Below are positions 9,501 through 60,244 of a DNA stretch of 64,000 nt, in pieces (within the stretch, counting starts at the first letter, position 1; each line of letters begins with the position of its first letter). Made by a program: the position numbers and the translations under genes. This stretch comes from Branchiostoma floridae (taxonomy: Eukaryota > Chordata > Leptocardii > Amphioxiformes > Branchiostomatidae). The stretch spans positions 26,634,508 through 26,698,507 of the forward strand of contig NC_049980.1 of the NCBI RefSeq assembly GCF_000003815.2, written 5' to 3'. The notes under the pieces were generated by a model that was given only the letters and a program-made list of their open reading frames with translations, searched no databases and was not told the origin of the DNA.

Positions 9501-12500
9501 TTGAAATACATGTAGAAGCACTGATGAAATGAATACAAGCAAACTGATATAGGACATACAGCTAATAGAGTTATAACTGCTGAGATTTTCATTTTTACAT
9601 GATTTTTTTTCCGTACATGAACAGAGCATAAAAGCAAAACCTAGTTTAGGGAAGAAGCAAGAGAGCTTTATCTAATGTAGGTGAGATGAATATTATTGAA
9701 AAATTCAATTGAGAAGGATAATTCATTCAGCAACAGGAGTAGCTTTTAAAAGTTTTTTCCAGCTCTGACCACAACCACTGATAAGATTAAGTCTTAATTG
9801 CTGCTGATGGGGTTCACACACATGTCCTCAATCTTTCCTTTCACATGTAATAAAGCTCCATTATACCTCCATCTGAGCCCCTCCCCCTGCCCAATCCTGC
9901 ATTGATTTCCTTTATCTGGCTTACCTGTTCTCCTGATTAACGAGACCCTCTCGCTAAATGCCATAGATTTTTCTCACTTTTTTTCATTAGAGCTGGCCAT
10001 GCATGTTATCCGCATGATCTCCAGACTGTCACACCCTGTGCTGTATCCTGGCAGTTTTACATGCCTGTGTGCGAGTGTGGATACCCACCATTACTCATCA
10101 CCTACTCCGACAATGAACTGCCACTTTTTTGTCGATGATAGTTGTTACATCAAACTGACCTTCAAAAGGACTTCCATTTGTGTAGACTGTTTTAATTGTT
10201 GGGCTATAACAAGAAATGCTTGTCATGCTCTTTGTCTTTAATAACCAGCCATGAAATACAAGAAGATTAACTTCCTTAACCTCACACTGGACTGCTTTTA
10301 GACCATTTCTTCTTTTGATGAGTGCACTGGGTTCTTTAACATGCTTGAGGTGTGGCTGTACCATTTCAAGGGGCTGCAACCCCTACCAGTAACATGCAAA
10401 TTATGATATAGAACATAAACTGCTCAGGATCTACCCTTTTTACTGAAGATGTTTTTTTAAGTGGCTACAAGGACAGAATTAAGTCTTTCACATAAACACT
10501 ACAAACATTGTTTTCAATATCAACCCCATCAACCCATTTTCCTAACAATAACAGTAACAGTACTGTTTTCAAATTGTCATGTATGAGATTCAATCAAGAA
10601 AGATCAAAGATAGTTTTTGATTCAAACAGTTGGAAAAAGAAGTTGCTAAGATTTGTTGAAAAACAAGTATCCAGTAACACATGTGTGGCATTCGAACAGC
10701 CAGACCATGAGTCTGTCCTTGGTCCTGAAAGAATTGTAACTTTCATGCATAACTCTTGTGTCACATTTGGTCCAGTGTTCCTGCATACCTGAAGGTAAAT
10801 TAACTGACTTATTCATCTTGCTGTCCTCTTTACTGAGAAATGAATATCTTTTATCATATCAATGTTGTCTTTCTTACATGGATATTTTACTTACTGAAAA
10901 ATGGAGGCTATATATCCTACTGCGAAATCCGCTTATCCTGCTTGCCATGTCTGATTGATTTGCTTGTTAAATGTGTATTAGTTATTCTAGTCAGGAAAGA
11001 GCCACATCAGTAATGATGTCATATTTTTCATTTCTCAACTACATGCCAGTAGATGACTTGTGTATGCTGCTCAGCACCCTCTCTAGTCCCACCCAGCCAG
11101 TACCCCGGCTGTAATTACTCTTGACTCCTTGCCCTTTCAGCTAAAGGTCAGGCCACTGATTACCATGGCCTAGAAGTCCTCTCTTTCTAATGAGCTAAAT
11201 GTCCGTGGAATGAAAAGGCCAGTCCTTTGAGCTGACCCATTAGACCTTCCATAGAATAGGTTTTTCTAACCCGAGGAGGAGCTTATTTTCTCCAATTTTC
11301 TCGCTCTCCCCCAAATGTAATGGAGTGTTACTGCCTGGAATGGCTGCCAGTGCTTTAATGCCCAGGCTTATCAACTCTGGGGCTACGGGCTGGGATATAA
11401 AAACCATGCTTCTGATCAATAGCATAACGACAAAAAGGATTTGCAAGATGGATTTCTAAAAGGACTTACTGGTATAGGCAATCCGCAGGGAGATCACTGA
11501 ATGGCTGTTACTGAATCAGATAAAAGTTGGGCGTGTCAAGGGTTGATGACCCGAGTGACATGCACTGATTTTGTGATAGTTTATGATAGGCAACATCTAT
11601 GACCTTATGTTCATTATGGGCAAAAGGGCAAAATGCTAAAGGAAAAAAGGGCAGTTTTTTTTTCTGTTCAAGGCAAGATCCAAGATGACATTTCTTTGAT
11701 AGACAGTGCATATGCATTTACATGTATAGTTTTGTAGATTGCGATACTATGTACGGCTTTGTATGGAAATATACTAAATTAACCGTAAAATTGCTGAAAC
11801 GTACAAGTTCAACTACAATATATCTTACATGTTTAGAAGTATTACGAAAGTACTTAGACCAACCACTTCAATTTTCTCACAGAGTAGACAGGGTAAAGCT
11901 ATGGCCTACAAAGTCGGTTACTCCAAATTTTCTTCAAGCAATGACTGTTTTTAAAGGTAAGGAACAAACCTCCAAATTTTCGACGGCTGACAGTCCATCT
12001 TGCTCACGGAGAATGACTGATGGACTGGTGTCAGCCGTTGAAAATTTGGCTTTAAAAACAGTCACTGCTTGAAGAAAATTTGGAGTAACTGTTTTCATAC
12101 GTGACTGATGAACCTCTTCAACGGCCTAGAAACCCATTTTCACAACCATGCAGCCTTAATTCTTCATTAACTTTTTCTATATCAGCCCACGGCTGTAATG
12201 GGCTCTAATGACCCAGCTATCAGAGTGTGAACCCGTCACATGGTTGTGTAACTTTCTTAGAAAAGTCCAGATGAATCGGTGTAATTTGTACTAAGGTGAA
12301 GGATGTTTGCATTTAAGCTGGTTATCAGTAATAATAGTGGCATTGACACAGGTGTAATCGTTCAGTGGATTTGACTACACCTATTTTATGAGCTTAATGT
12401 CCTGGCAGCAATTTGTGTAACTGAATGGATCGATTGGATGTAAAAACTGGCTTTTGGCCAAATCATGCAGTTGTAGATCCTACCCTTGACTGTAAGATTA

Positions 12501-15500: not shown

Positions 15501-18500
15501 GGTACATGACTCTATAACTGTTTCAAATGCCAACAAAAAACTTAGCAAGCAAGCAGTTATCATAATCCGTTTATGACATTTGGGTTCCAAGAAACTGGAA
15601 TCAATTGACCAGTGAAATGGAGTTCCACAACCTGATACCTTTACAATGAATGACATTTGACAATTCATAATGACATTTGCATGAATTATATGCTGTTGAT
15701 CATCTTCTTTACTAACATAATACAAGTTGTTCAAAGTATGAAAGTCTTATGTTAAGACTTATGTTTAATGGATTATAAGGCTAGCTGATAGTATTGAGAG
15801 GTCATGGGCTAGATTCCAGGCTTTGACGTTGACAGGAATAGGCACTTAACACCACTTTCCACACTCAACCCATGTATAAATTGATGAAAATGCACCTGAA
15901 TTCAGTTATGGAAGTGAAATATTGCAAGTAATGGAATAAGAGGGAAAGAGCTGTGCCTTCCAATACCCTCCCCAACCCCCAAGGCACAGTGGTTTACTGG
16001 TTACAACCTAAAAAAAAGGCTATCATGGGACCTTTACAGTATTACCATTATGAATATTAATGGCGGTTATATTTTCACAACTGTTACGGCAGCATTTGTG
16101 AGTGTATCAGTGTGTGTCTTTGTGTCTGTCAACAAGATAACTCAAGAATGGTCAGATGGATTGGTTTCATACTCGGTGTGTTGGAGTGTGACAAAAGCTG
16201 AAAATGATTAGATTTTCGACCCCCTATAGTGGCTTCCATTGGTACTGCAGCGGAACTTCCAGTTTTGATATCTCATGTTCTGAACAAGCTATGGTCAGGA
16301 ATTTTGGGTGTTAGATTGTTAACCTTTCTGTTGTTGTTCCTATTGCAGAGTGGAAGTGGTTTAGGAGGAGCCGGCACCACAGCAGGGCCAGCCAAACAGT
16401 GGCCTGGCAGGAGGACAGAAGGCTCCCAGATGTCCACGGCACAGTTTGTGCAGCATCTGGAGGACTACATCCAGGTAAGGCCACCTTGAGAGGGTAGCAC
16501 AGAGGATGGGAAAGCACTGTGTGAGAGACAAATATGGACCTTAATCTGGACAGATGATATCTAAATTGAGAATCTAAATTGGATAGACGGTTTTTTTTTA
16601 GCAGTGGACACTGTTTGGGGTCCATCTATATACTTTTGGCAGATTATAACTGTCAACATTGCCTCAGAACCTCATCAGAAAAAGGCGCTTGTGAATGAGT
16701 TATATAGAAACATTGTACTAATGGGTATATTTCCATGGGTTTGACTTTGAGTCAGAATTTTCTTCTCAAAATGCAGGAAATAGTGTTTCAGAGTGTTAGA
16801 GGAGTGTGTCTGTGACCCCTGGTCTTTTCTTCTTTACTCACCTTCTCCAGCTGCTCCAGGCAGGAGTGCAGATATGTTGTTATAATTTTAGGAAAGGATC
16901 TTTGAAAGACCTTTCCAGTAAATTAGATTTATTTATTTATTCATTTAATCTCAAGACAACTGAGTTGCCCCTTCAACTCATGAAAGTCGATTTCCAACCA
17001 CTGTCACACAACTACACTATCATGGTAATGTTAGCTATGCAGATTGAAAATCAAATTTACCGTGCAGACAGACCACAAACCTTCAGAGACCTCATATCTC
17101 CATGAAATATTTTGATGATGCAAATGACTTCCAAATCAAGATAGTTTCCCATATAAATCATTCAGGATTGTTTTACTTCACCATTACTTTATGATTACTA
17201 AAATCTAGGTAAAAGCCATTAAAAAAAGTGCCTGACATTGACTCATGATGTATCACTGTAAATATGACAATATTCTTTATTTTCCTTTCTAGACTTCTAA
17301 ATATCTGTTTCTGATCAAACGTTAAATTTTTTCTCAGTGGTCCCAGTCCAAGAACTTGTCAGCAGGTGCAACTGCGGCCGCCAACATCAGTGGTGTGAAC
17401 CCTGTAGGACTGAGGGGCACCTCCGAGCTGTCTGCAGAACAGCTGAAGCAACTCAAGGAACAGAAAGAGGTTTGAAAGGATTTTGAAATTTTTTTTTTTT
17501 TTTCTAAATCATGTTCGTAGGGCCTGATCAAGATGATGATGGTGATGAAGAGCGGCCCATAGCGATAACTGTAGCAGCATCTCTTCTCCCTAAGTCAGAA
17601 ACATCAAGCTTAAGCAAGCTTGACTTCACTGACTCAATAGGCGAAGCAGGGGTTACGAGGCTGCTCGGGAAATTCCCTACCCCATTTTGGCCGGAATGGT
17701 TTGATCCGCCACATCGCACTATCGCACATGTGGCGGGTTCTTTTTCGTGCCCGGGGTGTGGCTCTCCCCAAACACGGGACCTTCATTTAACGTCCTATCC
17801 GAGGGACGACTCATTTTCACTTGAGTAAAGTGAGGAAAGTCGTGTAAAGTGCCTTTCCCAAGGGCACAAGACCGGCAACACGGCAGGCGGTTTCGAACCG
17901 GCAACCTCTCGGTCACGGGCCGAATACACTACCACTGTGCTACGTGGCCCCACATGGTTAAATTTTGAAATGTGCCTGTGTTTTACAGAAATAGTGTATA
18001 TTGTAATCATATGATTGAATGTGTACAATGTAAAAAAAGACGTCAAACTCAAAGTAATGGTATTTCGTGATATTGAGTAGGATTTCTTGCATATATCCTG
18101 ATGATAATTGTTTAATCAACAAACAGAATCGTTGATATGTAATTTACAAATGTATATTGACTTCATGTAATCTTACATGTAAATCTGCATTTTACTAATT
18201 GCTAATTTGTCAACAGTACAAAATAATGGAAAGCTGTCTATAGCTTTCTTACTTCATCTGTGGTAACACAGTAGCTGTTGATACATGTATGCTGTGACTC
18301 GGCCAGTTATGTTTGATAGTTATGTTGTACAGATGCAGATGATGTATAGCATGATCACTTCCAAGAGGAAGAAGGCAGCAGAGAACGCAGCCAAGGGGAA
18401 GTTCAAGTACGAGTATGACTCAGATGAGGAGACAGATGGGGGAACATGGGAGCACAAGAGGAGAGCCCAGGAGATGGACAACACTTCTGGTATAGCCATC

Positions 18501-33024: not shown

Positions 33025-33782
33025 TTTCCAGAAGAACTGTTATTTTATCCAGATGACCATGCAACAAAAGGGCTCACCGTTAAGTCAAAGATTCTGAAAA
33101 AAACGGAAACAGTAGAATTTATTCCTAGAATTATTGATTAAAAAGGTAATGTGTAGCACCATAAGCCATTGCCTAGTGGACAAATAGACGTAGAGGAAGG
33201 ACAAAATTTTCGAAAACCCTACAGACAAACCATGCCCCCCTCCCCAAGATTTGGTGTAACGTTACCTCGCCTCGAGCGCTACAGTAACTTTACAAGATCC
33301 TCTTCTAAAAAAGTATAATTTCATACGTTCCTTAGGTTCTAGGCTACGTAAGTAACAAAGCCTTCCATACTTTAGCACAAGGAATACCGTAAAAATAGAA
33401 CAAAACCTGTTTTTCTGTGTGTCACAAGGAGGTCGCCATGTCCCTGTCCATGTTTGTAACTGGAACAGTACATTTTATCCACAAATAGGGGGAGTGTACA
33501 TTATATTTCAGAAAAGAAACAGTATAACAGAATATAAACACTTTATCAGACAGTATATTATATTAAAATATCTATATGTATATTCGCCGAATTTTTGACA
33601 GCTTTTCCAACCTTTTATATCTGCTACAAAAAGAATACCAATTATAAATAACCCCCCATACAAAAGTATACTGTTCTAAAGTTCAAAGGTCGCACCAAAG
33701 GTGACATTATCATAGATCAGGGTCCAGATTTGCCCTGGTCTTTGCCTTTTCCCACCGACAGCTCACAGAATCTCCTCCCGCC
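33025..33782. promoter_or_regulatory. Shared MRPL24/TM6SF intergenic promoter region
   Basis: This 758-bp interval separates two divergent start codons. At 33432-33441 the minus strand reads ACATGGCGAC, a YY1-type element often found at promoters of mitochondrial ribosomal genes. On the minus strand a pyrimidine tract ending in CAG near 33100 could be the acceptor of a 5' UTR intron of MRPL24. Start sites cannot be fixed from sequence. Confidence 0.4.
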
Positions 33783-38321
<4,539 letters not shown>

Positions 38322-40210
38322 TGGCCGAAAAGTTGTAGGAAACATGGACACCGTTTGTCCCTAAAGAGGCCTTTTGGTACATACAAGGAGGTTAAAAAAA
38401 CACTTAACCTCCTTGGTACATATTTGCACGAGATCTCCAATGTTTGATAACACTGCTTGATCTTCAAACTTTGTGCTTTTTGGTTAAAAGTGAAGTGACA
38501 CAAATCTGGCAAAGTTCTGGTAATTCACAGGAAAGTACACTTCTGAAATCACTGACAATTGCAATTCCATCTTGTTTATTATAATCTATGATACTTCTAA
38601 TGGCAGAACCTGTTACATAATTAAGTAAGCATCAAATAATAATCATAGAACATACTAGCTGTATCCCACTATGACAAGACATGTAAAGTCACATGAATTT
38701 CTACAACTGTTAGGGATCTTATCTAGTTCTTAATAGCTCATTTTACTTTAGACATTGTTTTAAATCTCAGGAACTGTTAAGTGAGGTAATTTACTTTAAT
38801 TGATTTAATTTACATGCATGTTGTTTAAGATTGTTTGTTGAAAATATGTATAATTATTATGTAGCTGTCTAACTTCTCAACACAATTTGACTGCCAATTA
38901 AGTTACTTGAAATGAGTTTCATTTCATTCTACTAAGTATAAACTATCCATAGCACTGTACGTGTACCAACTGTAAATGTGCGTCAGGCCATACATATTAA
39001 TTTGAGTACATGGATGACATCCTCTGGGCACCCTAAAATTGTTAGACCACACAAGATTTGAATTGCCCTTTGTCTTGTTGTGCTTTTGGGTCTATCACTT
39101 GATTCCTGTTCCTTTTTTTTACCAGCCTGCACCATTCATCCAAAATCTCAGATCAGAAACATTAGATTGATGTGGTCAGTTAAAGATATAATGTTAATAA
39201 GTTATCATCTCTTACATTCTGAAAAAAATGACTTTTAAAAATATGATTTACACAGCTTATATCCAAACTTTTTATGGCAGCTTAGAAAGCAACCTTTATC
39301 TTAGAGCTGTGTGTGCAGTATTATTGAAATATGTGCGTGGTGTGCTGAATATTTTGAACTTACCTAATTCCAGTGATTTTATGGCCTGAAAGTATAATGA
39401 AAGAGATTGAAATTTGATTTGTTTGTCATTGATAACATTGTCACTTGTTCTATGCATACAATCCACTATGAACACATGAGATTACTAGAACCTCTGAGCT
39501 TCTATAGCTAGTATAAAACTAAATTAGCTTTGTTTGCAATGATATCCACTTTAATTTATTTGAAGGTGGCAGGTTGTATATATAACTGTAGGAAGCATTC
39601 ATAATTATTGTGACCCTAGTGAATTTGGGTGTGAAAATGTATATCCAATTTGTTGTACATTTTTTTTCTTAGCATTGGTTTAATAATGAAAAAGCATTCT
39701 AGTATCTTGATCATGTGTAGTGTATTTCATCTACATAAGTACTTGAGTTTGTACATGTTCATGATTTGGTATAGGAAATGTTTGGCTGTGAAACGTAAAA
39801 CAAGAAAGCTGGCCGGTGCATATTTTGGAAAAAGCCTGGATGTTAAACAAAATCACATGAAAAAAGAGTTTTTAAACATCGAATTACAGAATTGGTCTAT
39901 GCACCAGCAAACATGTGTTCAAGGAGTTGTATCTATATATGGGCTATGTGGGTGGAGAGTGTTATATGTCTAACCAAGAAGGTTTAACGTTATATGATAA
40001 CATTTCCTATGTAACGTTACATAGTCCTGTGGCCATGTACATAGTCACACACAAGTCTTTTTTTCGGTTTCTTTTTGGTTCCTTCACCTTGCACTTTATT
40101 TTTTTCCTCACGCCACCGGCCGCACGGACCTGCACCTCACCTGGATATGATGCTCTAATTGAGGGCTTTGTCCAGTGCCCTATTGAGATTGAGATTGAGG
40201 ACATGTAAAG

Positions 40211-40386
40211 TGGACTCATTCCTCAGCTAACTGACATATGTCACACTGCAGTCATCCCTCAGCAAGACAGCTAGAGCCGCACAGTTCTAGTGAGGGCTAT
40301 AGTATATCGCATGACAGCCATCTCTCTATATATACTGAGGGATGACTGTGGTGCGATCGATGGCAGTTAGCTGAGGAATTAGTCCA
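40211..40386. mobile_element. 176-bp MITE-like inverted-repeat element
   Basis: The left end TGGACTCATTCCTCAGCTAA and the right end TTAGCTGAGGAATTAGTCCA are complementary except at one base. Inner arms CAGTCATCCCTCAG and CTGAGGGATGACTG also pair. Confidence 0.75.
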
Positions 40387-40479
40387 CTCTACTATATACT
40401 AATACATGCAATTAGTCCACTCTACTATATACTAATACATGCAATTAGTCCACTCTACTATATACTAATACATGCAATT
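40381..40479. repeat. Three perfect 33-bp tandem repeats at the end of the MITE
   Basis: The unit begins AGTCCACTCTACTATATACT and ends AATACATGCAATT. Copies at 40381-40413, 40414-40446 and 40447-40479 are identical. The first overlaps the right end of the inverted-repeat element. Confidence 0.9.
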
Positions 40480-41427: not shown

Positions 41428-44400
41428 ATGGCTACTGTTTTGAACGACGGAAGGAACGTGATTAGGTTTAACAACAGTGAGGGCCAAACGTTGCTGGAAA
41501 ATTGGGTCGAAGAGGTGAGTTGGTGAAATGTTTTGCATAATATTTTCGATTCTCGAACAACATACGGTCAAGTAAAACAAAGAGTGAAGTTGTCTTGATT
41601 CTTGAAGGTTTCTTCGTCCAATTGACAAATGACTTGTTTCTGATGTCCCTGTGGCCGTATCTCTTTACATATGGCACACACTGACAGTCATGATCAACGT
41701 TTCATGTTTTTGCCTTGCCGCCAGGCAAGGCTTTACGCCAGCTTTTTTCCATGGATCAATGGACGGACCTTTTAACCTAGCCCTTCCAAAGCCCCTTCCA
41801 AAGGCCCTTCTTTCCTTGCCGAGTTTCATGGCTTAGTTAGACAATAGTACATTCCAGGCGAGTATTAAAACGCTCTTCTAGACGCATGTTACTGTATGTG
41901 GTCCAGCGTAATAAATCTACGCTTTAACTCACCATGTTTATATAAATATATATCACAAATTGCATCAGAAGGAACTTAGTTTGTAATAAAAAATAATGCA
42001 TATTCATTGTGGGTCAAAAAGTTTTACAAAACCTGTTTAATGTGCCAATAATTTATCTGACATAAATTATGATAATGAGGGGGGGAGGGGGCGACATGTG
42101 GAACTCGGGATTTTTAAGCGTAGAATCTAGTCTATCTTACCAAAATAACATAAAATACGCGGCAAGGCACAGCTTTTTTAAAAAGATTTCTTGTTTAGCA
42201 AATGCGCCGATTTTTTTCTCAATAGTATGAATCTTCATCGCAAATAGTATTTATTTTATAGTAGGGGCACTTTAAGTCACTGTTTAAGTATCGTTACTTA
42301 AGTCACTCTTGACAATAAACTGCCAAAGAGCATGACACGAACCATATGGAATAGTGTGACACTGTGTGTTGGGGGGGGGGGGGGGGTACTGTAATCCCAA
42401 ACCAGTTTCTAGCAACAAGTTGTGGTTTCAAGTGGTCTTGACTGAGACAAATGAATCCATTTCCGCGCCCCGCTGCACTTGGCTGTCCTTTTGTTGTCTG
42501 TGAGTTGGGATAGCTCAAAGGGCTTAGGGATAATAACTGGTTACTAAATTATTCATTCTGGTATGATCATCCCTAACGCGACAGGCTCTCAGACTGGCTT
42601 TACAACTTGACTTTGGTTCGTTTGCCATTTTTTCTTCACCCAGAAAGGATTAACATTACGGTATTGTTCTGTTTATGTGTGTGTCTGTTCGTCTGTGTGT
42701 CTGTGTGTGTTTCCATGCTGTAATTTCTGTGGGTTTTGCCAGAGGGCACTTAAGTAGTTGAGTGCAGGGGAGGCGAAATCTGCTACTAGTATCTCTGATT
42801 GCCCCATTAACTTTTAAGGTTAATAATAATTATGTTTTCATATCAAATGTGTCTCTTCTAATAAGAGTTTGTTTCAAACTTTTTTCAGAGACAAGTTCAA
42901 CATCTAGATGAGTATGTGCCAGAAGAGGGAAGTCCAGAAACTGTAAGTTTTTTATGTTTTCAGATTGTTCACTACATTGTAAAATTCAGATGTCCTAGTG
43001 AGTAGTGTTAGCCTATGTTCATTTCAAAGGCCCTGGTGACAATATTTTTATAATGTGATTGTGGTCTAAGAGTACCGGTAGAATCATGAGAGCTAAACTT
43101 TACTACACACATCTGGATTTTACAAGATTTAGCCAAGTATAAAACATGTAACTTTTGTTTGATATTCTCCTTCAGCTGAGTACAGCTCAGGTACACAGAC
43201 ATGGACACAAGGGTCTCCTGACAACCAACCTGGAGGCACATCCAGAAAACGTCACCACCTTCAGAAACTCTTACACTGCACCTGACAAAAGTGGTGTCCG
43301 AACTGTCGGTAAGTATCCAGCAGCTGGTTTATAGTCTGTGTTACAGAAACTCTGTGTTTTAACATACATGTACATAGACCCCCATTTTCAACATGTGCTG
43401 GCTACGCCATAGCCAAAACTATGACAAAAATGGTGTGCACTGTCTTCATTGTCTTCTACTGTGACTTTTCCAGGCGAGTGCTAATTAGTATAATTTTCAC
43501 CCTAAATATGACCAAATATTAGTAGCCCAGTAGAATTCCATAATCATGGTACTTTCCCAAATCTTCTGTTTGGTCACCCTGTTCCCTTACATTGCCACCA
43601 AACTTAATCTTTCTAGAAAGCCGTCAGAAGTTTGTGGATAATTCATTTCCATCTTCATTCTCTCCTTGATTTCAGGAAAGAGGGAACAGCTCCTGACCCA
43701 GGCCCTGTACCAAAAAGTGAGTGAGGATGTACACCAGGAGTTCAACCCGCCCCCTCCTCCAGTCGAGTACAAGTCTGTTACTGCCAAGGACTTCTGGGAC
43801 GACAACTTCGTCCCCTCCATGCCTGAACCCATCAAGGTGAGTGTACCAGAATTATAATCATAAGTTGGTGGATTTTATTATGTTTTTATTATATATATTT
43901 GGCACTTGGCTACACAGCCATGTAAATATCTTATCTGCTTATCTTTTGGTGATTGTTTATCTGCCTTCCTCGCCGCTTCCTCTACTACACCTTACCCCAG
44001 CGACAACCTTTTTCTAATCCATGTGTGATTTTAAGGAGAGAAATTCTGTGATTTTGCATGCAAATATTCTATTTCTATCAATCGTAAAAACTACACTACA
44101 CGCTACGATAATCTTTACAAGCTTTGGTTGATTTTCTTAAAGTTTCCCTTTTAAGAAATTTGAGTGTGAGGATAAGTCAATGTGTGGATGTTATTGTGTG
44201 AGTATAACAATTTGTTTGTTAATTCACAGGACCATAGTGTGGAAAGGGAACAACCCATGACGTTCTGGTCACAACACAAGGACAAGATCCATGTAAGGAC
44301 CATTTCTTGTCCCACAAGTAAAATGTAGTCTTGCTGTAACTGAAATCAAAGCTAAGAGATAGATAGTTCTGTATGGCATTGCATACCAAAGCAGGCAAGA

Positions 44401-46301: not shown

Positions 46302-49300
46302 TTAGATAACACTATCGAAGTTGTTGTGTGCTGGCGGTGTGACGGGGCTGTCCTGTTCCTGTAGAGTCACGTACTTCCCAAACTCGGGGGCTGACACGTC
46401 TGGTAGGTTACACTTCCCCCGGTAGGAGGGGCCCTGCAGGACAGTGATGTCGGCATCAACAATTAGATACAATCAAATCAATGGCAATCAGAGATGGCAG
46501 ACTTCGAGCAACGCTGAATTTGACCTAATCATCTATGTTGTGATTGTGAACCTATAAACTTGAGACACCATGTAAACCTATGCAACATTGATAATCACAT
46601 CAATATGAATAACATAACGTTAATTTATCTTCGAGTATACCACCACAGGCCTCACTCCTTAGTAGTGTTTTCGTACATTTAATTTCATCTCAAAACTTCC
46701 AATAACGGTGCCATAGACAGGGATGTCCCTAACTCTAATTGTTTCAAATTTCCTAGAAAGTTTCACCTTTGTCCTCTTGGCACTTCCGTTCACGTCGCTC
46801 TGCTCCAACGTGCGCGTCCCCTGCAGTAGGTCTTTCAATTCGCCAGGTGGCCTGTACGTCAGTTCAATGTCTCCTCGTTCACAGTACTTTAGGAGTTGAC
46901 GTTGAATTCGTCTGGAACAACAGTTGTTTTACCGGTCAACGCATACTAAGCACAAAAGCAAAATTTTGTGCATTTGAGATCTTCAAATTGATACAAAACG
47001 TTTGCTATGAACTATTAACGTAACAATGTATATACGCATAGAATGAATAAGAAAAAAGATGAATTCCTTGATTCTTATATTCCTCCTTATCAAAAATAAG
47101 GCACAAATGCAATTCTACTGTTCAATATTGTGTTATGTTCTCTCTTGATCCTCATAACTGCTGCAAATTTCCTATTTTAATCTGTCGAATGAATCACATG
47201 ACCTGTCCTTGGTGCTGAACGCCATCATGTGATGAATCGTGCACTACGGAGAGCACTCGATATGGCAATCCTGTGCCTCTACTCGTTGACGAACATGGCG
47301 TCACTTGTAATAATACTAATACTCACAATCTCTTGTAGGAAATGACCGCCAGGATGATGACCACGACCAGCAGAACGATGACCGGAATAAGGATGGCGAC
47401 GGTGATTCCTGTCTGCATCGTCCATCTACTACCTACAATTAATCATTATCGTAGGTTTAGCATGTTCAAATATGTACCCACAGACTCCACACTAAATCAA
47501 AATTAAAGCTTTCAATCTCACAGGCACTTTTCAGTAGATGTCATAAAAATATCAATGTTATACCAGTATCGTTTTCAGATAATTTACGTCTAAAGCTGTC
47601 CTCGTATAGTGCGTTTCCGTATCAAGAAGCTTGCAGCTGCTTACCTACGCCATCTTGGTGTCCGTAACTTGCGTTTCAAATGTATCGTAGCTCAAGCATA
47701 CACGGTGTTTTCTAATTCTAGTTTTCATATATTTTATTCAAAGTGTCTTCTGTGAATTATACATACTAAATAGAGGCTTTGGAGCATCAGAAGATCTTCA
47801 GATGTTCGAAAACGAGCTATTAAAGGTTTACTGAAATAGCTGCGGCCGGCAGCTTCAATGATGGTGTCCTTATGAATGACATCATGTGAACCACTCTATA
47901 CTATATGTTTACAAAAGATCAAAGAAATGTCGAGGATGTTTTTCTGACTTTGAACATGTATGTTTGATGTCAATTTGAGCTTTAGCTGACCGTGTCTGTG
48001 TCCTGTTGATCCGTCACAAGGACAGGGATGCCGGGACCCTTTAGCATCCGGCAGGCCTTGCGGCTTCCGGTCTGTATTGGCCGGGGACCTTGTCGGAAAA
48101 CTGACGGTTTCCGGTTGTGGTCTTCCCGGAGGTCTGAATGTGAAGTCTGCCAAGAATATATGAAGAAGGTAATGTACATGAGGTTTGCAAAGAAAACGAC
48201 TGAACGATAAGAACAAATGGGGCATCCTTGTAAAGATTTTAGCTTTCAAACGATATATATGATAAAAACAAAAGTGTAGCTTTTCAAGGATCATTAAGGC
48301 GACAGCGTTTCACATCACAGTTTCAGACATTAGACAACTCAACCTACCCGGAGGAATGCCATCCCTGGGTGCTTCAGCCGTAGAGTATTTCTCGCGGGGT
48401 TCTGTTTTCGTTGTCCTCTGCATCGGTGTCGTCGGCTTGGGGTCCGGGACAGGAACTGAATAACAACTCGTATTTTAGTGGCTTTTTTTTGCTCTCAATT
48501 TCAGAACTCAGAACTTTAAGATTCTAAGTAAACAATCCAAACTACAATACCACCATGTTATCCGGTGCAAGAATTCAGGGCTGAGATTTGTAAAGCACTC
48601 ACTGTTTCATGCGCCTAAAATTAAAATTGACGCAAACATAGAGATAGATCTGTCATTGAATGAATGGGTATACTGAGAGCACACGTGACTTAAAAAACCG
48701 TACCCTTTGATGGACAGCGTCCTGCTCGGAACGTGACGTCATCCAGCCCGATCCGTGCTTGGCTGCTCTGCGACTTGTGACCTTCAAATTTGATCTAATG
48801 CCAAGAATATATAAGATAACATCAGGAATATGGGCACAGAAAGGTCGGCAATTCTTACGGAAATGTATGGGGTTTTTTTCTTACCTACACAGCCTAGCCA
48901 TGGATTTTCTCTGTCGACCTTTCCAAGAGTGCCTAAGTCTACATACGAGTTTACGGAATACATACGAGTTTTACGGAATTCATACGATCCACTGCTATGA
49001 AACAACTGGATTTTACAAAAACGTGTAGCCTTTCCGATATGGATCGGCCAAGTGTCTGTTTGATATATGAATATGATACAGTTACATACCTGAAATTTTG
49101 AAGTTGGCCAGATGTCCACCCTGACCGGCGTCCATTGCGCCCCGACTTTGCCCTTGTTGTTCCACAGTTTCCTGACGGCACCCCCCTCCCCAATCGTCTG
49201 GTACACAGTCAGTCCGCTTGATCCGTCAGCCTGGTAGAATCAATAGAAAACAAACGAGAAGCCGTTAAAAAGGTTCTATCTGCATTTCATGGTGACCTCC

Positions 49301-52300
49301 TACACAAGGCCTCATCTTCCCCTTAAAATCAAAAGTTTTATCAACAAAAGGATTGTGTAGTCCTTGCCGAAAACGTTTCAAGTTTGAATCTTGAAATGCG
49401 CAATTCGTTTCATGTGATGTTAGTGTCTGTTCTCAATATCACAACTAACGCCAAATAAGAAACAAATGATGTAAAAGAGACCTACTAACGCAGTATCAGT
49501 AATTTCTAAGGTATGCAAACGTCAGATACCAGTAGTGTTGAAGACATTCTTGAGAAGAATTGATAACAATTCTGGAAAATAGTTTAAGCTTTTTGACGCA
49601 ATGATGTAATTTGTTCCTTAAGCTAGTGACATACCTGTACATAAGCGAAGAACTCCAGGCAGTAGATGCCCTCTGCCGTCATCCAGGGTGTGAGGAGCCA
49701 GGCTAAGTTACTGCGGGTGTCCCCCGGACTGCCCCCGCTGGCGGCTACCTGTACCATCATGAAGCTTCCTACAGTATACACGTACGGCCAGTTACAACAC
49801 AGTCATTACACATGTACCATCATGAAGCTTCCTACAGCACACACACACACGGTCAGTCACAACACAGTCATTACACATGTACCATCATGAAGCTTCCTAC
49901 AGCACACACACACGGTCAGTCACAACACAGTCATTACACATGTACCATCATGAAGCTTCCTACAGCACACACACACACGGCCAGTCACAACACAGTCATT
50001 ACACATGTACTATCATGAAGCTTCCTACAGTATACACATACGGTCAGTCACAACACAGTCATTACACATGTACTATCATGAAGCTTCCTACAGTATACAC
50101 GTAGGATTAATAACAACACAGTCATTACACATGTTAGGCAGTTGTCATGTGTCAAAATGTCAAGTGATGAACGTGTACTTCTGACACGAACACGCAGGAG
50201 AACAAGACTGGAAAATACCGACAAACAGTCAGTTAACCATGTCAGTAGGGCTTGTCTTTTACTACGAAACGTCATGTAACGTTACAGATATGTATGAACG
50301 CAATAAAAATAATAATTAAAAAATCCCTTTGTATCTGAGAGTTTGTGGAATTGAGCTACTTAACATGAACGAGCATGAAAAAAAAACTCCATTCATCCCG
50401 GCGTCGGTAGTTATCCTGTATCAGACAAGTTTCACACCTTTTAACTTAAAGCCTCAGTTATAGCTGCTGGCCCGGGCGCTCCTACAAACTACCTCTTATC
50501 TCCGAGCCTAAAAGGTACGTGTTACTCAAAACTCTTGATCATCACATGTTTCTTAGATATGAGATACCATATACCATATATACCGTTGCAGCGCAATAAA
50601 AATCCACTAGGCCCATAATCGAACTTGTTCTTTGTCGACACCTACACCTACATGTATCAAATATCACACCACACCATCAACATGCGCGCTGTTAAACCAC
50701 GGACAGACCTATGTAACCTACTCAATGTAATAACAACTCACCTTCTCCAGAAGTGTGGTCCTTCAGACTGTCCGTGCTGGCCCACTGCACCCAGGCTAGC
50801 TGGGATCTGGTAGATGCAGCAGTGTACCCACACAGACTGTCGTCAAAACTACACGTCAGGCTGGACGGTGAGACGGGCGCGCGTGTCGTCTGTGCAGGCG
50901 GGGTGCTTATTGTCGTAGAGACCGGTACCAGTGTTGTCGTCATCGCTGATTCTGTTGCCAGAGTGGGCTCCACTGGAATCATTGATTTTGTTTTATGAAA
51001 AAAAATCGCCGGGAATGTGCTATTTAATCATGATGTGTAACGTTTGATACAAGATCTTACCATCATTTTTTCTCAATTCAAACGGTGACGGCAAATCATC
51101 TAATCCGCCATACACTAAATCGGGCGTCTTCAATCTGTAGTTAAGTGGCCATGGCGTCGTAGAAGCGACCGAGTCATCCCTTTTAAGGGATCACTCCTTT
51201 GCTTCTACGGCGTTAGTATGACTCCTCTACGAAATAATGCACACTTTTTCCAGAAGTGTATTGAAACAACGACTCGTGCCGTACATTCGAAATGTCTCAA
51301 TCTTTACGTTCGTAGCTGCAGTTTAAAGATCCTTCTGGTAGTGAAGCAAATGGTGCCCATGTAAGACCCAGTATTACAAAAAAAGCGCAATATGTCAAAC
51401 ATGGCGTCTGTGTTATTGTGTACAATTGCTAACAACTTGTTTGCCTTGTTGTGTTGGGCTGTTTCTGTAATCATCTTACCAGTAACAAAATGAGAGAGGA
51501 AACGGAACTGAGCATCACTCGAAACCTACCAATAGCACACGGACCGTCTTCAAAACTGACGTCATCCAACGCGATGTCTCCCCTGGCTTTCCTACCCCGG
51601 ACTGCCTCAAATACAACCTGTGGGTGGTAAGAAATGTAGGAAAGTGATAAATATTGCATACAAAAAAATCCATGACAAAAAGTAACAATACTCCTTTTTC
51701 ATTATTTACAAATCAATTGCAAACCCCATCGCCAATACCGTATACACCATTGTCGTAGTTTATGCGAATAAATGAAAATTTAAGTACCTTAACGAATGAT
51801 ATGAACGAGTTGAAGTAGACTGTTTGTGTTTCCACAATACTTCTACATTCTACACATTGAAGTAGCACTGCTTTTGCCATCTTACCCTAAGCCAACCCAC
51901 CCCAACCTAAAATCATGTTAGAGAGCGAAGTTTACAAGACCTGGAAAGTATGGTTGGCCTGTATGTTGACCCTCCCCTGGTGCCAGCTGGGGCCTTTGTT
52001 CCCCGCCTGACTCCACACGGGTGCGCCGACGTCGTTCTGAGACAAGCGCAGGTAAATGTTAAACTCCCCCATGAACTGTCCGAACATGTGATACCAGAAC
52101 ACCAGGCATTTAGGCAGTGGGGAAGGGCGGAGGTTGGGGGTCATGATGCGGGCGTGGTGACCTTCCTGTTTACGGGATGCTTCCATGTAGAGGTACTTTC
52201 CTGGGGGAAGGGATGGTAAAATAGAGTCAAGGGCACGTGCTGTATAATCTAATCTTTAAGTTCATCTGTGTTAGTAGGAGACATTCTGGAAAAGTTTAAC

Positions 52301-55300
52301 TCTAATTTCCAACACGAATGAACAATCCACTGCTAATGTGGCGTCACAGAATTGGTTAAGTCTAATTTTCGTGTTGGAAATTACATTTATTGATGAATTT
52401 TTCCAGAATTAATTTATGATCAATTCGCAGCTCAGGATCCCCTATATCCGCCACTATGTAAACCAGTCAGCATAGCCTCCAATACCACGGTAACAGACAT
52501 TTCTCAGTCTACAAATAATTTTTCCATGTTAGCACATATGAAATCAGCAGAATTAAGATGTCCTAATTCTCTTGACTTGGAGGTGTTGGCCTTCAGCCTT
52601 CTACGGGCCTGGTCGTTGGAAGGGATGACAGAAACGTAATTTAAATCAGAGTAAGTTAATAAGGACATGGAAAAGACGGCAATCAACGGCAAATTCGCGA
52701 TTTGACAGCTTCACGCAACATCCATATCCCAATTTTTTAGGATACATATTTCGCGCTGAAACACACCTTTGCCTGATGTGTGGTCCCCCCGTGGTCCCGT
52801 GGCGGTAGTCGGGGTCCTTCCCGCCTTCAGCCGCCAGTCGAACACGTCATCCTTATCCTGCACGTAGTCGCACAGCCCATTGTCGAAGTTGCAGTCAGCC
52901 TTCTCAGGCAACGCTTCTTCGTTGTCGATTACTAGCCCTAATGTAATATTCCGTAAATAACCTCAGCAAGTTGGTGAATCAAAGGAATATATAAGGTTTC
53001 TTGTAACACAACCTCGAGAACATTGACCTACACTCAGCTACCTTCATCAGGGTCTGAACTGACTACACCCTCCCCGCCCACTTGTATCTTTGATACAGAG
53101 TGTGTACTGTGTATTATACTCTGGATATGTACTCGTATCTGTGGCTGTCTTCGGCCGGGTAAATGTTTTTACGAGGCTGTGTTATAAGAACCCTGTATTC
53201 CTGAAGGAACATATAAGTGTTTGACGGGTCATCGCTTATACAACCCACCATACAGAGAAACATACTTCTTTCATGTGAACAGTCAGGCTGAACGCTTTAT
53301 GCAAGCAAAAAGAAAAGAACAGCAATACGACAGTTGTAAGATAACGTCGCACGAGAACAGCACTAGGGCGACAGTTGATGTCCTTCCTGCTGCCTAACCT
53401 CACACTCAATGGGTAGCCAAACGGCCACATCAGAGTGCCAAAATGCGACTGAACCTCACCGTCAGTTACACATGGGCCGTCCGAGAAAGTGATGTCGTCC
53501 AGCGCTATGTCTCCCCTGATCCCGCTTCCACGGGCACCTTCAAATACAACCTGCGGATACGGTGTGAAATTATCTATAGAAAAACAGGACTGTAACAGCG
53601 GAGCAATGATTCTTAGAGACATCCATATACAATAGGAGAAAAACTTGTCGGAGGGGATAGAAACGCATCACTCTCTTGGAACTGCGTTTACAAAGTTCTA
53701 AGAGTCAAGAGTTTGGAGAGTTGGGCTCTGGTCGTATGTTGTTTACAGTCAAACAAATAATATAGGATGAAATAACGTGACATTTCATAGAAATGATAAA
53801 TGCCAATGCTGACTACGGCGAATGTCACGTAACGTTTTTTATCATATTTCATGTTTTTGCTGATCAGTCATCAGACCACAACAAATTTCCTGCTATCCAA
53901 CATACTATGTATGGTGAAAGGACGAACACTTGTTTGATCCCATCTCACCCACCTGATAGTCCATATCTGACTCCACAGTGACCTGACCACGTAACCACTT
54001 GATGCCACGATCACCAGTTGCTGTCCAAATAGGCTCATGCAGATTAACTAATCCAGTCGGCAGCTTGTACACGTTCAGTGCGCCTGCGTGGATGTGACGT
54101 AAGAAATATCGGCCAATCAGAACCCTGTGAGCGCTAGACATGTCTGCTTAAGAAGGGAAGATAGTATGAGATTTGGGTGGAGCGGAGTATGGACAGGCAT
54201 TCGGACAGAGGCGAGGGTGCAGGTGGTCACAAAACACACAAACACAGAGAAAAGGGTGGTGTTAGGACCAGAAAGAACACAGAAATTAAAAACACAATTG
54301 TTATTGACAAACAAATCACAGGAAAACTCAACACTCCAAATTTCGGAAATACAAAATGATTAAGGAGACAGGTTTGATTGAGTGTTCACAAAGAATGGTT
54401 TTCGTTTGCGGGATCAATGGGTAACGTATTCATCAGCTCATTGACATCTATTTTTGGCGAAACTTCCTGAGTGGAGGCCTTTTTGGCTTCTCGGTCTGTT
54501 TTTTTTTTTTCAATTTGTTTTGCTGCCTCCTCAGTTGTGCCCTGTGGCACATTTGAAAGGTAGCATGTGTACTTGTTGTTTGAAACAAGATTTTGGAAGT
54601 ATACGGAAAGGGGCGTGCCGGCCGGGCTTCAAATCCTTCCACTTCTAGGGATCCACTCGTTCCCACTTTAAGAGATGAAGCTGTGTATTTTTCAATCTTC
54701 ATATATCAGGGCGAAGATGTCGCACTCACCTATGTGCGAGCCGAACAGGTGATAGTAGAACTCCAGGCACCTGGCTCCCACCTGTTGCATCATGGGACTG
54801 ATGAGTCGCGCCTTGTCCCCCTCCGTACGCGGACTGGACGCCTCAATGTACATGTACTTCCCTGTGTGTGTGCCGGATCAAAAACAACGTCTTTTCTCTT
54901 TAGTTAACGATGTAATGAATGTAATGAGGTACATAGAACAGGCGATCTGAACTCTACAATGCCGCAGCAAGAATTCTCAATTGCTAATAGCCTGATAGCC
55001 GAATGTTGTGTATGATTATGCAGAACAATAACAGGAAAGGGAGGCGTATTTGACAAAACCTGCATTATATCTAAAAACACAGTTCACGCCCTTCCTCATC
55101 CCCGCATTATACACATGGCTACATTGTGACGGAACTGACGTCACGGATTTGACGACAGTAGCATCAATGATGTGACGTCATGCATAGATAATAAGCTATG
55201 GTTCAGTATCAAAGTTGAAACCTGAGCCGGTGGTGTGGTCACCGTTGGGTCCCGTCATCCCGGTCCCCGTCCTGCCCGACCACTGCCGCCAGTCAAACTC

Positions 55301-58300
55301 ATCTGTGTTGTCCTGCGTGTACCCGCACAAGCCTCGGTCAAAGTCGCAGTCACCGGCCTTAGACTGGCTGTACACACCTGGAGGCAATAAACGGCGGTGT
55401 TATCACCTTGTGATAACGTTAAATATAACGTTAATGTTAATCTTTTTTAATTAACGTACGCATTTATCGGGGTAACCAGGAAATCAGAAGTTACCTCTAA
55501 AAAGAGACTACAAAGTTGTTTCTAAGACTAAAAGATTATGTAAGCACTGGGAGAACTAATGGTAACGGACTAACGGTAACTATCCGAGTGCCAGATTATT
55601 TGTTTCCGATCACATGGCCATATGGGACATCCGTGAATAGTTTATCAGGTAGCAGGGCTAAGCATAACGTTCAGATCAGGCTACACTACGCGAAATAGGG
55701 TAAAGTTGGTCACTGTACACTTAGTGTAACTACATTTTATTAATTCTACTATAACATTGAGGTACCTTTTGCCGAGACTGTCTTTTTAAACCAGCAAAAC
55801 GTGTTCAAAAAGACCCTCTTCATAAACTTAGTTTGTCGTCAGTAGACACGGGCTAGAATTGTCTCTTAGAACTTCATGCCTATATCGGGTGAACCTGACT
55901 GGTAATCTTGTCACGAAGCCTTGGCAGCAACCCACGATCCATCAAACGGACATGCACAATTATACCGTAATGAACCATGCTCCACTCGATCGAGCAAGTA
56001 ATTTCATTACCTTCTTGTAGTGACACGGCGGATTTCCAGCAATTTAGCCATGGCATTTAAGGTGTGGCATGCAACTTTGGCGGAGTGAAGGTTGAGTCTG
56101 TGTGTGTTTTACCTTCGCCAAGAACATCATACTTTCAGTACCATGTGTGTGTGTACTGTCGTACTATGTGTGTGTGTTCGTGTGTGTGTGTGTGTGTGTG
56201 TTTGTTTGTTTGCTTGTTTGTTTATAGCTTGAGAAGCCGCAGATGGATCCGCATGATATTTGGCATGTGGGTAGGACATCTCACCGCTCCCACATATATT
56301 TCATACAGACCAGAAATAACACATGTGTCTACATGTTGTACTGGGAAGGCCCGCCATGGAAACGTGCACCAATGTTATGTCTTCACATTTGCGGTCTGGA
56401 AATATATTCTAATCTATCAGTTTTGTCAGGAACGTGATAACAAAAAGAAAAACAAGACATCATAACATAAAACTTTCACGTCAACATATTAAACTTATTT
56501 ATCATTAAATTGACATTTTATGGAAATTGAATGAGGTGAACAAATTCACCCAAGAAGCAAAATATTTATCTATTGCAACGTTGTATTTGGAAATATGATA
56601 ACCCGCTATTCCCTAGTATGAAAACAAACAGACATGCCAATTTAATGTCTTTGCACCGACAAAACATGCTTCAATCAATCATTGCATCTGTATAATGACG
56701 TAAGTTACTTCTGGTTGCCCAGTGTGTCCCCAGTTCTGGTCACTTTAATACTAGTACATGATTCAGTCTGTTTTCATGCTTGAGAAATGTTGCCTAGTGA
56801 TGTCAGTGACTGCCTGCGTGTTTAGTTGGTTAGCTAAGCGATTGACAGCAAATTGTTTCAGTTCAGTTTCAGTTTCAGTTTATTTATTTATCCAGGAAAA
56901 TACATCGCCTATTGGCGTTTTTCAATACCTCCTGGGGGGCCGGGAGACCCCAACATAAAATAACACAAAATCACAACAACTGAATCAAAATTGAAATCAA
57001 AGATCAAACTTAAATAACTAAACGTCAGGTGTCAACTATTTACAATACAAATAACTCAGGATAACTTAATATAATGATGGTAGTAATAATAACAATAATA
57101 ACACATTCAGGCAGTGGATCAACTTAAAATCAAAGTAACGAAAAGTGGAATTTGCATATCAATGTGTCGCTGGTCGGGCAGTGTTTGTTTCAAAGTCGAT
57201 TTGCAAATGAAAAATAACAGTCAGAAGAGAACATAAATGTCAGTCTTAGCATCAAAAAATAATACAGAAATCAAACAAAAGGATCCACTGTGATATGACA
57301 GGAACTAAAGTTAAAATATATACAATCAGAATCCTTTAGTCCTGGTCATACAATCGTTTAAACTGTGACAGTGTCCTCGCAGATCTTAATTGGGACGACA
57401 GGGAATTCCAGAGCACCGCCCCTGAGTATGAAAAAGCTTTCTTTCTATATTCAGATTTAGCTTTAGGCAGCAGGAGTCCACCTTGTGATCTAAGACGGGT
57501 ATTATGTGTGTGTATTTCTGAGAGTTGGGAGAACAATGCAGTAAGATGGGGAGGGGTCATGCCGTTAAGTGCCTTGAAAACGAGCGTTGCCTTACTTCTT
57601 TTATGTACATCAACTATTTGGACCCATCCAAGACTACGTAAGACGTTTGATGTAGAAGTATGGCGATCGTACCCCATGATCACGCGACCAGCTCTAGTTT
57701 GGAGTTTCTGTAGTTTATCCAGACTTCCTTTACCCCCTTGATCCCAGACAGTGCTGCAATACTGTATGTGTGGGAGAAATAGGGCTTTGTAAATTGTGAG
57801 CAGCGCCTCTCTATCCAGGTAGTGTTTAAGGTACTTCATTATTCCGATTATTTGAGCTAGCTTCTTGTTAAGATGATCACAGTGATCATGCCACTTTAAC
57901 ATGTTGTCAATAATGACTCCAAGATACTTGAATTTATCAACTTGGTCAAGAGTAGTGCCAGCTAAAGTAATATCTAATTCAGTGTTAATGTCGTTTGCTC
58001 TTGACGAACCCACTAACATCGTTTTACATTTCGTGGGGTTTAACGACAATTTGTTAGCCGCAAACCACTGGGAAAGTCTGGCTGAGTCCTTTGACGATAA
58101 GGTATACACGAACAACAACACGTACTTGGTCTCAAATGATAGATCACACATCGCTAATAGAACAGGAGTAGCTGGTTTGAAGAGATAGTTTACAATGGTT
58201 GTGGGGCGATTGGTGGTTTGACCTAACGAGGCCCCAGACCCCGTGCCCGACAATGTAGACAATGCACCCGTCTTTCCAACTATAACATCACAAGAATTCG

Positions 58301-60244
58301 CCATGGTCGTATCGCTATCAACCAAACGGAAACGTACACCGTGTTGATGTAACCCGGCCGAATGAATGCTTGCATCAAGTCGTCACATACATCCTCCTTA
58401 TTATCCTCCCAGTTTTGAATAAGGGTAAGTTCTCACGGTGACTTCACTTTTGCAAATTAACGTTTTATTTTAAAACCACGCCAAAATGAAACTCAGTTCA
58501 TCAATATTCCATTTTTTGTGGTTGATGCGTTTTACTTCTTAATAACCCGTCCAATCGGTAAAGAAAATTACTCCAGCATAGACATAACAAAGAAGTCCTG
58601 AAGCGTTGTTTACGTCTGTGTACATCTGTTCGTTAACCGTTCCTGCTTCCTTGTCGTACCTTGTAAGCAATGTTTAGTTCCTCGAGTAATAGCAGAGCTT
58701 CGCATAATGAAGGCAATGTTGTTAAGGAGAATGTCAACGGCATTCGTCTGTGTCACAAGCCAATCTATCAACCTTGACCCCGCGGTGTATGATGTGTCCG
58801 TATCTCATTGATATCAAAATGCCGGCGGAAGACTAGTCTACCACGGATAGTGTCATTTTTCTTACTCTATCTTAGTCCTCTAAGTCTTGAAAATTCAAGA
58901 TATCAGCTAACTTACTTTCTCTGGTGGTACTAGTTCTGCTTGTAACTTATGATTTTGGTTTTGATATTTAGAAACTCTGAAGAGGATCGACACATTAAAG
59001 ATACTGTAAAATTATATTGTGGAAAACGTATGGCTCAGATTATTAGAATGAACTTATTCAGATAGTGCAAAACATCAGCTGGTCTGTGGTAAAGAAAACA
59101 ACAACATTTCGACAGCAAACATTTATCTTATATACCGGTTTTGTACAGACATGAACTTGATATCCCGCACCACATCCCAGCCGCACCAGCTACACTCTGT
59201 AATCCCCTATGGTTACAATGTCATTACGGTTAAACGACATGTTACAGTCCGGGTGCCAAGTTTCGGCTAGCGCTCGCCACATGCTCCCAAGAATTCGCGC
59301 TGTGCTAGCCTAGAAGCCAGGCTGTTTCCAGGGCACAAGACGCGGTCAGCTCCTCGACTGCAAGGCCACCATTCCCCGGAGACAATTTTGTTACAGCCCC
59401 CTGTGTTGCCAAGGGTCTATCGCGGGGGGCTGTGGTAGTATTTCGTCGTGGGCATGTTGTCCGTGGCTGGAGCCGAGGGGCATGGCTCTGAAAACCCTGG
59501 TAACGGTCTGTTTTTCAGACTAACTCTGCGCGTGCCGCCCTAATCCCAACTGAACCGCCCTATCAGAAATCATATCGCCCATCAAAGGTCGCCTTGTCCC
59601 CAGCCGTTACCGTCCAGCAAAACACTGCCAGCGATCAAAATAACCCCCTCCCCACCCTATACCAGCTGTGGAGTGGGTATATTGTGTATATCATATACTC
59701 ATCAGTATACTATCAGTTTGATGTATTATTTTACTACACGAATGCTCAAGAAGCGCGTAAATGTTACGACGCATTTATTGCATCCAGCCTTTGGAATGCA
59801 CAAACGTTTTCATAAGATCTATTTTCGCGTAGCTGACCAAAAGATTCTTAATCGATGACACAACGGCAAAGACAATTTATGGAGAAGATGATATCATTAG
59901 ATCGCAATATTTGAAGACATGTTTTTGAGGGAGCACAGCCAAACCATTATGAATCACTGTCACTTTTGTTAACGCATGACAGAACTCAATCCCTTGCCGG
60001 TGAAAAGAATGTCAACGTCACATAATCAATAGTGTTGTCAACCACGAAGAAAAAACAAGGAACATCACGCTTTACAATCCTAGTAATTTTACAACATTTG
60101 CAGTTCACAACCTCGTCTTACTTGTAAAAGATCGTAAAACCTTCTCCGTGGACGGTGGTGCTGGCAGAGTTGTAGAAAGATTCAGAACTCACCCTGTGAG
60201 GCTAGTAGGACTAGCACTGCCAGGAGCTGCGGACTGTGTGCCAT
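46302..60244 (-). CDS. Three-MAM-domain single-pass receptor-like protein, complete
   Basis: Seventeen exons (minus order): 60244-60193, 55377-55222, 54861-54730, 54083-53953, 53550-53460, 52937-52767, 52200-51941, 51617-51530, 50972-50742, 49768-49635, 49230-49090, 48794-48704, 48455-48348, 48146-47991, 47432-47327, 46911-46767, 46433-46302. Total 2325 nt, 774 residues, all phases matching. Signal peptide MAHSPQLLAVLVLLASQG; MAM1 about 27-187 (CDFDRGLCGY ... GDIALDDITFSDGPC); MAM2 about 204-360 (CNFDNGLCDY ... GDIALDDVSFEDGPC); Thr-rich linker about 362-396; MAM3 about 397-559 (CSFDDSLCGY ... IGLDDVTFRAGRC); Pro/Thr linker to about 650; membrane helix about 657-679 (ILIPVIVLLVVVIILAVI). The tail has ELKDLL and YVTL sorting-type motifs and ends DSVI. 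MAM domains mediate cell adhesion and dimerisation; there is no catalytic domain. The exact orthologue is not recognised. Confidence 0.88.
49750..50131 (-). repeat. Six-copy minisatellite that multiplies a 3' splice site
   Basis: Units start at 49750, 49813, 49878, 49941, 50006 and 50069 (spacing 63, 65, 63, 65, 63 bp). Each contains, on the plus strand, CATCATGAAGCTTCCTACAG, which on the minus strand is CTGTAG followed by GAAGCTTCATGATG. In the first unit this is the acceptor and first bases of MAM-gene exon 10 (exon starts at 49768). The other five copies lie upstream in the intron. Unit length alternation comes from CA-run differences. Confidence 0.95.
52283..52409. mobile_element. 127-bp foldback element in MAM-gene intron
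   Basis: The outer arms ATTCTGGAAAA and TTTTCCAGAAT and the inner arms TAATTTCCAACACGAA and TTCGTGTTGGAAATTA are complementary. The loop holds GTGGCGTCACAG. Confidence 0.7.
55988..56300. repeat. Repeat-rich block in MAM-gene intron 1
   Basis: Contains (TG)n at about 56180-56200 and (TTTG)n at about 56200-56222. These are followed by CTTGAGAAGCCGCAGATGGA and ATATTTGGCATGTGGGTAGG, which I recall as a common interspersed text in lancelet DNA. Similar (TGTG)-then-AACTCAAGAA text occurs near 16110-16150. Confidence 0.4.
56857..58190 (-). mobile_element. 5'-truncated CR1/jockey-type LINE
   Basis: The minus-strand open frame 58325-57336 (329 residues) encodes, from about residue 85, the C-terminal part of a reverse transcriptase: LSQWFAANKLSLNPTKCKTM, DKFKYLGVIID, LTIYKALFLPHIQYCSTVWD, LQKLQTRAGRVI and SGAVLWNSL. 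The catalytic box is missing, so the copy cannot be active. The 3' end is a GGATAAATAAATAAA stretch followed by (CTGAAA)n at 56880-56857, typical of CR1/L2-like tails. It lies in intron 1 of the MAM gene in the same orientation. Confidence 0.85.
58190..60192. other. Rest of MAM-gene intron 1
   Basis: The upstream part of the LINE-containing open frame (58325-58190) does not look like LINE protein. The rest, to the donor at 60192, shows no exon. The signal-peptide exon joins the first MAM exon in frame, so none is needed. Confidence 0.6.

Follow-up and report, generated by a model that had tools for sequence, protein, structure and literature searches.

When an intron ends in several tandem copies of its own acceptor, each followed by a copy of the start of the next exon, which acceptor is used, and do the spare ones matter? 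A minisatellite in a 64,000-nucleotide stretch of DNA from the amphioxus Branchiostoma floridae (contig NC_049980.1; this whole stretch is hereafter the window, and positions are counted in it) raises this question. The array lies at the end of an intron of a MAM receptor gene.

A minisatellite that repeats a 3' splice site six times

TRF describes the array either as a 63-bp unit repeated 6.0 times (score 587, 92% matches) or, over the same interval, as a 128-bp double unit repeated 3.0 times (score 630). As a control, we resampled the window 20 times under a first-order Markov model, with Ns removed; the top TRF score among these resamples was 64, hence the array is not due to chance. On the minus strand, all six units read CTGTAG/GAAGCTTCATGAT (the slash marks a splice junction here and below), so that the TAG of an acceptor is repeated together with 19 nt from the start of the exon. 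The first exon bases after the six acceptors fall at 49768, 49831, 49896, 49959, 50024 and 50087, a spacing of 63/65/63/65/63, and unit lengths range from 63 to 65 bp. TRF and the unit sequences therefore agree with the original prediction, which described a minisatellite with six copies of an acceptor and of the beginning of its exon. We call U1 the unit that touches the exon and U6 the most distal one:

49750..50134, minus strand: minisatellite of six 63/65-bp units across a 3' intron-exon boundary (TRF and unit alignment)
49769..49770, minus strand: AG of the putative real acceptor, unit U1 (unit sequences)
49832..49833, minus strand: AG of the decoy acceptor in U2, whose use would give a stop at codon 9 (sequence and frame)
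49897..49898, minus strand: AG of the decoy acceptor in U3, whose use would give a stop at codon 9 (sequence and frame)
49960..49961, minus strand: AG of the decoy acceptor in U4, whose use would give a stop at codon 9 (sequence and frame)
50025..50026, minus strand: AG of the decoy acceptor in U5, whose use would give a stop at codon 9 (sequence and frame)
50088..50089, minus strand: AG of the decoy acceptor in U6 (the most divergent unit), whose use would give a stop at codon 9 (sequence and frame)

That such an array meets a boundary is unsurprising by itself, because a random 385-bp stretch placed between 47280 and 55377 crosses a placed exon boundary in at least 66% of positions. For a random 64-bp segment of the same region, the figures are 8.6% for covering one of the 12 placed acceptors and at least 6.3% for covering one of the eight placed donors; this value and the 66% are lower bounds, as only part of the donors were placed.

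The host gene and its frame-keeping acceptor

The minus-strand host gene has exons, placed by homology and reading frame, that encode three MAM domains (at least three in the gene), and a transmembrane-like segment judged by eye. The gene may extend past 55377. The exon that the array touches, exon 10 in the original prediction, is named here exon 2 of MAM domain 3, and the array occupies the 3' end of the 973-nt intron that precedes it:

47280..55377, minus strand: span of the placed exons, with three MAM domains and a transmembrane-like segment (homology and frame)
50742..50972, minus strand: upstream exon of 231 nt encoding a linker and the beginning of MAM domain 3, with donor GAAG/GTGAGT (homology and frame)
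49769..50741, minus strand: intron of 973 nt with the array at its 3' end (donor 50742 to acceptor 49768)
49635..49768, minus strand: putative real exon, 134 nt long and the second of MAM domain 3, with acceptor TAG/GAAGC and donor CAG/GTATGT (frame and Pfam)
49090..49230, minus strand: next exon of MAM domain 3 (homology and frame)

The donor at 50742 agrees with the consensus at eight of eight positions, R being allowed at +3. Joining its exon to the next in frame is achieved by a single acceptor, 49768, in the terminal unit of the array: the 134-nt exon starts in phase 1, the junction falls within a split glycine codon (G/GA), and the product, ...DHTSGEG-SFMMVQVAASGG..., stays open through the exon to CAG/GTATGT. 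The joined exons of MAM 3, with the last one omitted, match the Pfam MAM family at E 1.8e-17, compared with 1.9e-45 for MAM 2 and 1.5e-24 for the first part of MAM 1; by itself, the last exon of MAM 3 gives a weak match below cut-off (E 0.0043). Moreover, the equivalent introns of MAM 1 and MAM 2 share the phase-1 layout (G/GG AAG and G/GA AAG). The frame-keeping join, the Pfam match across it and this common layout identify the exon-proximal copy as the likely real acceptor, as had been anticipated.

Two further repeats lie in introns of this gene: a second small tandem array at 48940-48987 (20 bp repeated 2.5 times, score 82), off the placed boundaries, and, between MAM 2 and MAM 3, a MITE-like inverted repeat at 51155-51212 (28 nt, arms 2 nt apart, 82% complementary).

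Splicing to any of the five upstream acceptors would have a very different outcome. In all five cases the reading runs GSFMMVHV or GSFMIVHV and then meets TAA at codon 9, which bears out the earlier statement that an in-frame stop follows soon after each upstream copy; use of any of them would be expected to truncate the protein, also as proposed. RNA spliced in this way would probably be destroyed by nonsense-mediated decay. The acceptor of U2 lies exactly 63 nt from that of U1 (49831 versus 49768), so a frame read from U2 would reach the real exon in register, and nothing but the TAA TGA within the unit interrupts it.

Other features of the window

Outside the MAM gene, the plus strand carries an open frame resembling SUGP1 (6516-6773), with a fragment of a Surp domain below the Pfam cut-off (E 0.0026), and one resembling TM6SF (33705-34061), with no Pfam match. 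The counterparts of both are neighbours on human 19p13, and the pair possibly represents a conserved chordate linkage. Among the other plus-strand frames searched against Pfam, four had no match and two had weak matches below cut-off; an open frame at 43642-43854 on this strand matches CFAP143 weakly, again below cut-off (E 0.011). A minus-strand frame of 348 aa at 57339-58382 has no Pfam match at E 0.001 and has the look of a C-terminal region from a LINE reverse transcriptase. Further repeats comprise a 33-bp unit repeated 3.1 times with 100% matches at 40205-40479, which adjoins and partly overlaps a 58-nt inverted repeat, possibly a transposon end, and an inverted repeat at 11917-12089 (40 nt, 98% complementary, arms 93 nt apart). 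The Rfam search of the window returned one tRNA only, a minus-strand match at 17881-17949 that scores 30.5 bits against a gathering score of 29 and could be a tRNA-derived repeat.

Real and decoy acceptors look alike

If U1 is the real site, does anything in its sequence set it apart? Pyrimidines occupy 11 of the 20 positions from -3 to -22 in U1, and 11, 11, 11, 11 and 12 in U2 to U6. U6 has a run of 4 pyrimidines, in the other five units no run is longer than 2, and the tract is mostly an alternation of TG and TA; the pyrimidine-bearing tract attributed to each unit is thus not pyrimidine-rich. The 11 other acceptors that we placed in the MAM gene have 8-17 pyrimidines out of 20, with runs of 3-11. 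All six acceptors of the array are therefore on the weak side and TG/TA-rich, and simple counts, which stand here in place of a splice-site model, give U1 no advantage. A CTGAC motif resembling a branch point, picked by eye, is present in U2, U3 and U5 and absent from U1. As real and decoy sites are alike in pyrimidine content, we reject acceptor strength as the sole cause of site choice.

Accessibility was estimated from a single local RNA fold with no control. The predicted mean unpaired probability over -20 to +3 is 0.32 for U1 and 0.22-0.29 for the five decoys; that of the branch region is 0.58 and 0.32-0.50, respectively; and that of the AG itself is 0.83 in U1, 0.90 in U2 and U4, and 0.00-0.36 in U3, U5 and U6. 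The predicted fold, in which U1 is the most open on two of three measures by small margins, leans slightly towards U1, and we do not rely on it. Concealment of the decoys by RNA folding was set aside; in this lone uncontrolled fold, the AG of U2 and U4 is predicted to be no less open than that of U1.

Downstream context does differ clearly: U1 leads into the whole 134-nt exon and its donor, whereas each decoy leads into a 19-nt exon copy.

Comparison with amphioxus mirages

Arrays of this kind have been described in amphioxus as mirages. According to two reports, they occur in Adh3, the globins BflGb6 and BflGb9, PGBD5 and troponin C (PMC3087553, PMC3902484); the second report adds PGBD5, whose repeats are imperfect and whose protein was modelled largely from predicted splice sites, and cites troponin C (PMC3902484). 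Units of the Adh3 mirage measure 10-72 bp and show somatic instability, and many amphioxus mirage units carry splice signals (PMC3087553). In BflGb6 the 3' boundary is duplicated, two haplotypes have 6 and 3 units, and the edges of the cluster are excluded from homogenisation (PMC3087553). From the Adh3 data and RT-PCR of the globins, the authors say that their results suggest no interference with regular splicing (PMC3087553).

The likeness to the MAM array is close: tandem units cross an exon-intron boundary, the real site is at the end of the array, and cryptic signals are present in many units. Units of 63/65 bp are within the Adh3 range and shorter than the 150-160 bp of the two globins. 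What differs is the host, here a MAM receptor gene, and the type of evidence, here one DNA sequence. We conclude that the structure is of a type already known in amphioxus, to which the sequence of this gene appears to add another host. Among the matches listed for literature on amphioxus minisatellites, mirages and tandem repeats at splice sites, no title concerned an array in a MAM gene, which is no proof of absence given that MAM was not a query term.

A parallel lies outside amphioxus, in the minisatellite of the human 6-16 gene (IFI6/G1P3), described in Nucleic Acids Res in 1995. This is also a genic minisatellite that multiplies a splice signal, and its copies are reportedly used; the signals there are donors, unlike the acceptors of the MAM array.

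Which acceptor would be chosen?

In our view the array is very probably an amphioxus-type mirage that originated by duplication of the boundary, and splicing most likely proceeds through the exon-proximal acceptor only. We infer that the spliceosome would select 49768 alone, because it is the one acceptor followed by a full 134-nt exon and a good donor, the decoys being followed by 19 nt and then a stop. The five spare copies are probably ignored, and the array would then have no strong effect. A point against this reading is that the decoys are not visibly weaker: they have 11-12 pyrimidines out of 20 against 11 in U1, the same TAG and, in three of them, the branch-point-like CTGAC that U1 lacks, and the AG of U2 and U4 is predicted to be as open as that of U1.

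The best analogy is provided by beta-globin substrates in which the 3' splice site is duplicated. In nuclear extract, these were spliced exclusively at the distal site, and very inefficiently, whether the exon stretch after the upstream site measured 14, 55 or 205 nt (PMC5389562). By analogy, this suggests a correct choice with a possible cost in efficiency rather than mis-splicing. Since all three lengths gave the distal site, the shortness of the exon copy is not proven to be what disfavours a decoy (PMC5389562).

A cost in efficiency could also be regulatory. Decoys might bind U2AF and U2 snRNP unproductively, more units giving slower splicing and less receptor. This recasts the earlier idea that copy number tunes splicing, in terms of efficiency instead of isoform choice, with or without some mis-spliced and decayed RNA, and it is compatible with a mirage. 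The six sites are alike, and each decoy product has an early stop; moreover, two strong duplicated 3' splice sites are described as sometimes co-occupied and as splicing less well than one, surplus bound complexes being suggested to delay remodelling (PMC5389562). This extract work, however, used beta-globin constructs, and the Adh3 and globin data suggest to their authors that regular splicing is undisturbed (PMC3087553). We regard such a role for copy number as unlikely. Quite unlikely in our estimate is its inherited form, in which the five decoys would sequester 3'-splice-site factors, copy number would set the rate, and the inner TG runs would possibly add a second layer of silencing. If true, mirages would make up a cephalochordate class of elements that vary splicing efficiency.

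The decoys could instead silence themselves, through binding of UG-binding repressors such as TDP-43 to TG runs. These have 6, 5 and 6 repeats in U4, U3 and U2, versus 1, 2 and 1 in U1, U5 and U6, and human CFTR exon 9 is indeed described as repressed by TDP-43 on a UG-rich sequence upstream of its 3' splice site (PMC12171016). We nevertheless find this highly improbable, as two decoys, U5 and U6, lack such runs, slippage makes them by default anyway, and the human CFTR minigene carries TG11 (PMC12171016).

Could the units supply microexons?

The original prediction also saw in each unit a donor, ATG/GTAC, making each copy a potential 14-nt microexon. The motif is present in four of six units (three of the five upstream ones), while the two distal units read ATAGTAC, so the claim of a donor motif in every unit stands for four units and fails for two. 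The GT does sit 14 nt into each exon copy. As a candidate donor, GTAC agrees with 4-5 of 8 consensus positions, which decides nothing alone, because three of the eight donors that we placed in the MAM gene score equally low.

A precedent exists in potato, where an RdRp intron arose when a segment crossing a 3' boundary was duplicated in tandem. As here, that segment held a branch site, a tract, an AG and the beginning of the exon; the new donor came from a small, formerly exonic segment, and RNA-seq reads support splicing of the extra copy (PMC4974935). In potato this copy serves as an exon plus an intron; in the MAM array the implied introns would be very short, namely 49-51 nt between units against a minimum of 295 nt among seven measured introns of the gene. 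In addition, inclusion of one to six microexons of the U1-U4 type always leads to a stop. The microexon proposal is thus weak, and we give almost no credence to microexons or a nascent intron of the potato type using GTAC as donor.

Origin and turnover of the array

U2, U3 and U4 differ from one another in 1-3 aligned columns; relative to them, U1 differs in 6-8 columns, U5 in 4-7 and U6 in 10-13. The three inner units carry (TG)5-6, whereas in U1, U5 and U6 the tract has stayed of the GTATAC type and TG runs measure 1-2. Inner units are homogenised and edge units diverged, U5 being intermediate, which is a usual sign of tandem turnover. The BflGb6 array shows the same arrangement (PMC3087553).

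This pattern also bears on whether the array is an assembly artefact with a lower true number of units. The window contains two 100-N gaps and hence is not finished sequence, and one of the mirages in the globin paper appeared aberrantly assembled (PMC3087553). The units, however, are distinct variants of two lengths, unlike a simple duplication of reads, and we consider an artefact very unlikely.

Under the preferred reading, a mirage with regular splicing, we infer that a segment of about 65 bp crossing the 3' intron-exon boundary was duplicated in tandem. Towards the exon, unit and exon sequence agree up to GGTACA, beyond which the exon reads GGTAGCC; at the intron end of the unit, the single-copy flank reads CCTA-ACATGTG. 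The unit, at its exon end (GGT-ACA-GGT), thus shares an ACA with the 5' flank (CTA-ACA-TGT). This 3-bp microhomology is suggestive of a duplication joint, although close to chance, and the first duplication may perhaps have occurred at this match. Growth to six units would have followed by slippage or unequal exchange. The array may then persist because duplications of an acceptor leave the exon-touching copy intact, the extra copies landing in the intron.

Six near-identical acceptors in one intron, a single one of which keeps the frame, make a clean natural case. Copy-number variants, if they exist, could measure how the spliceosome chooses among equal 3' splice sites, and could also show whether boundary duplications seed new introns.
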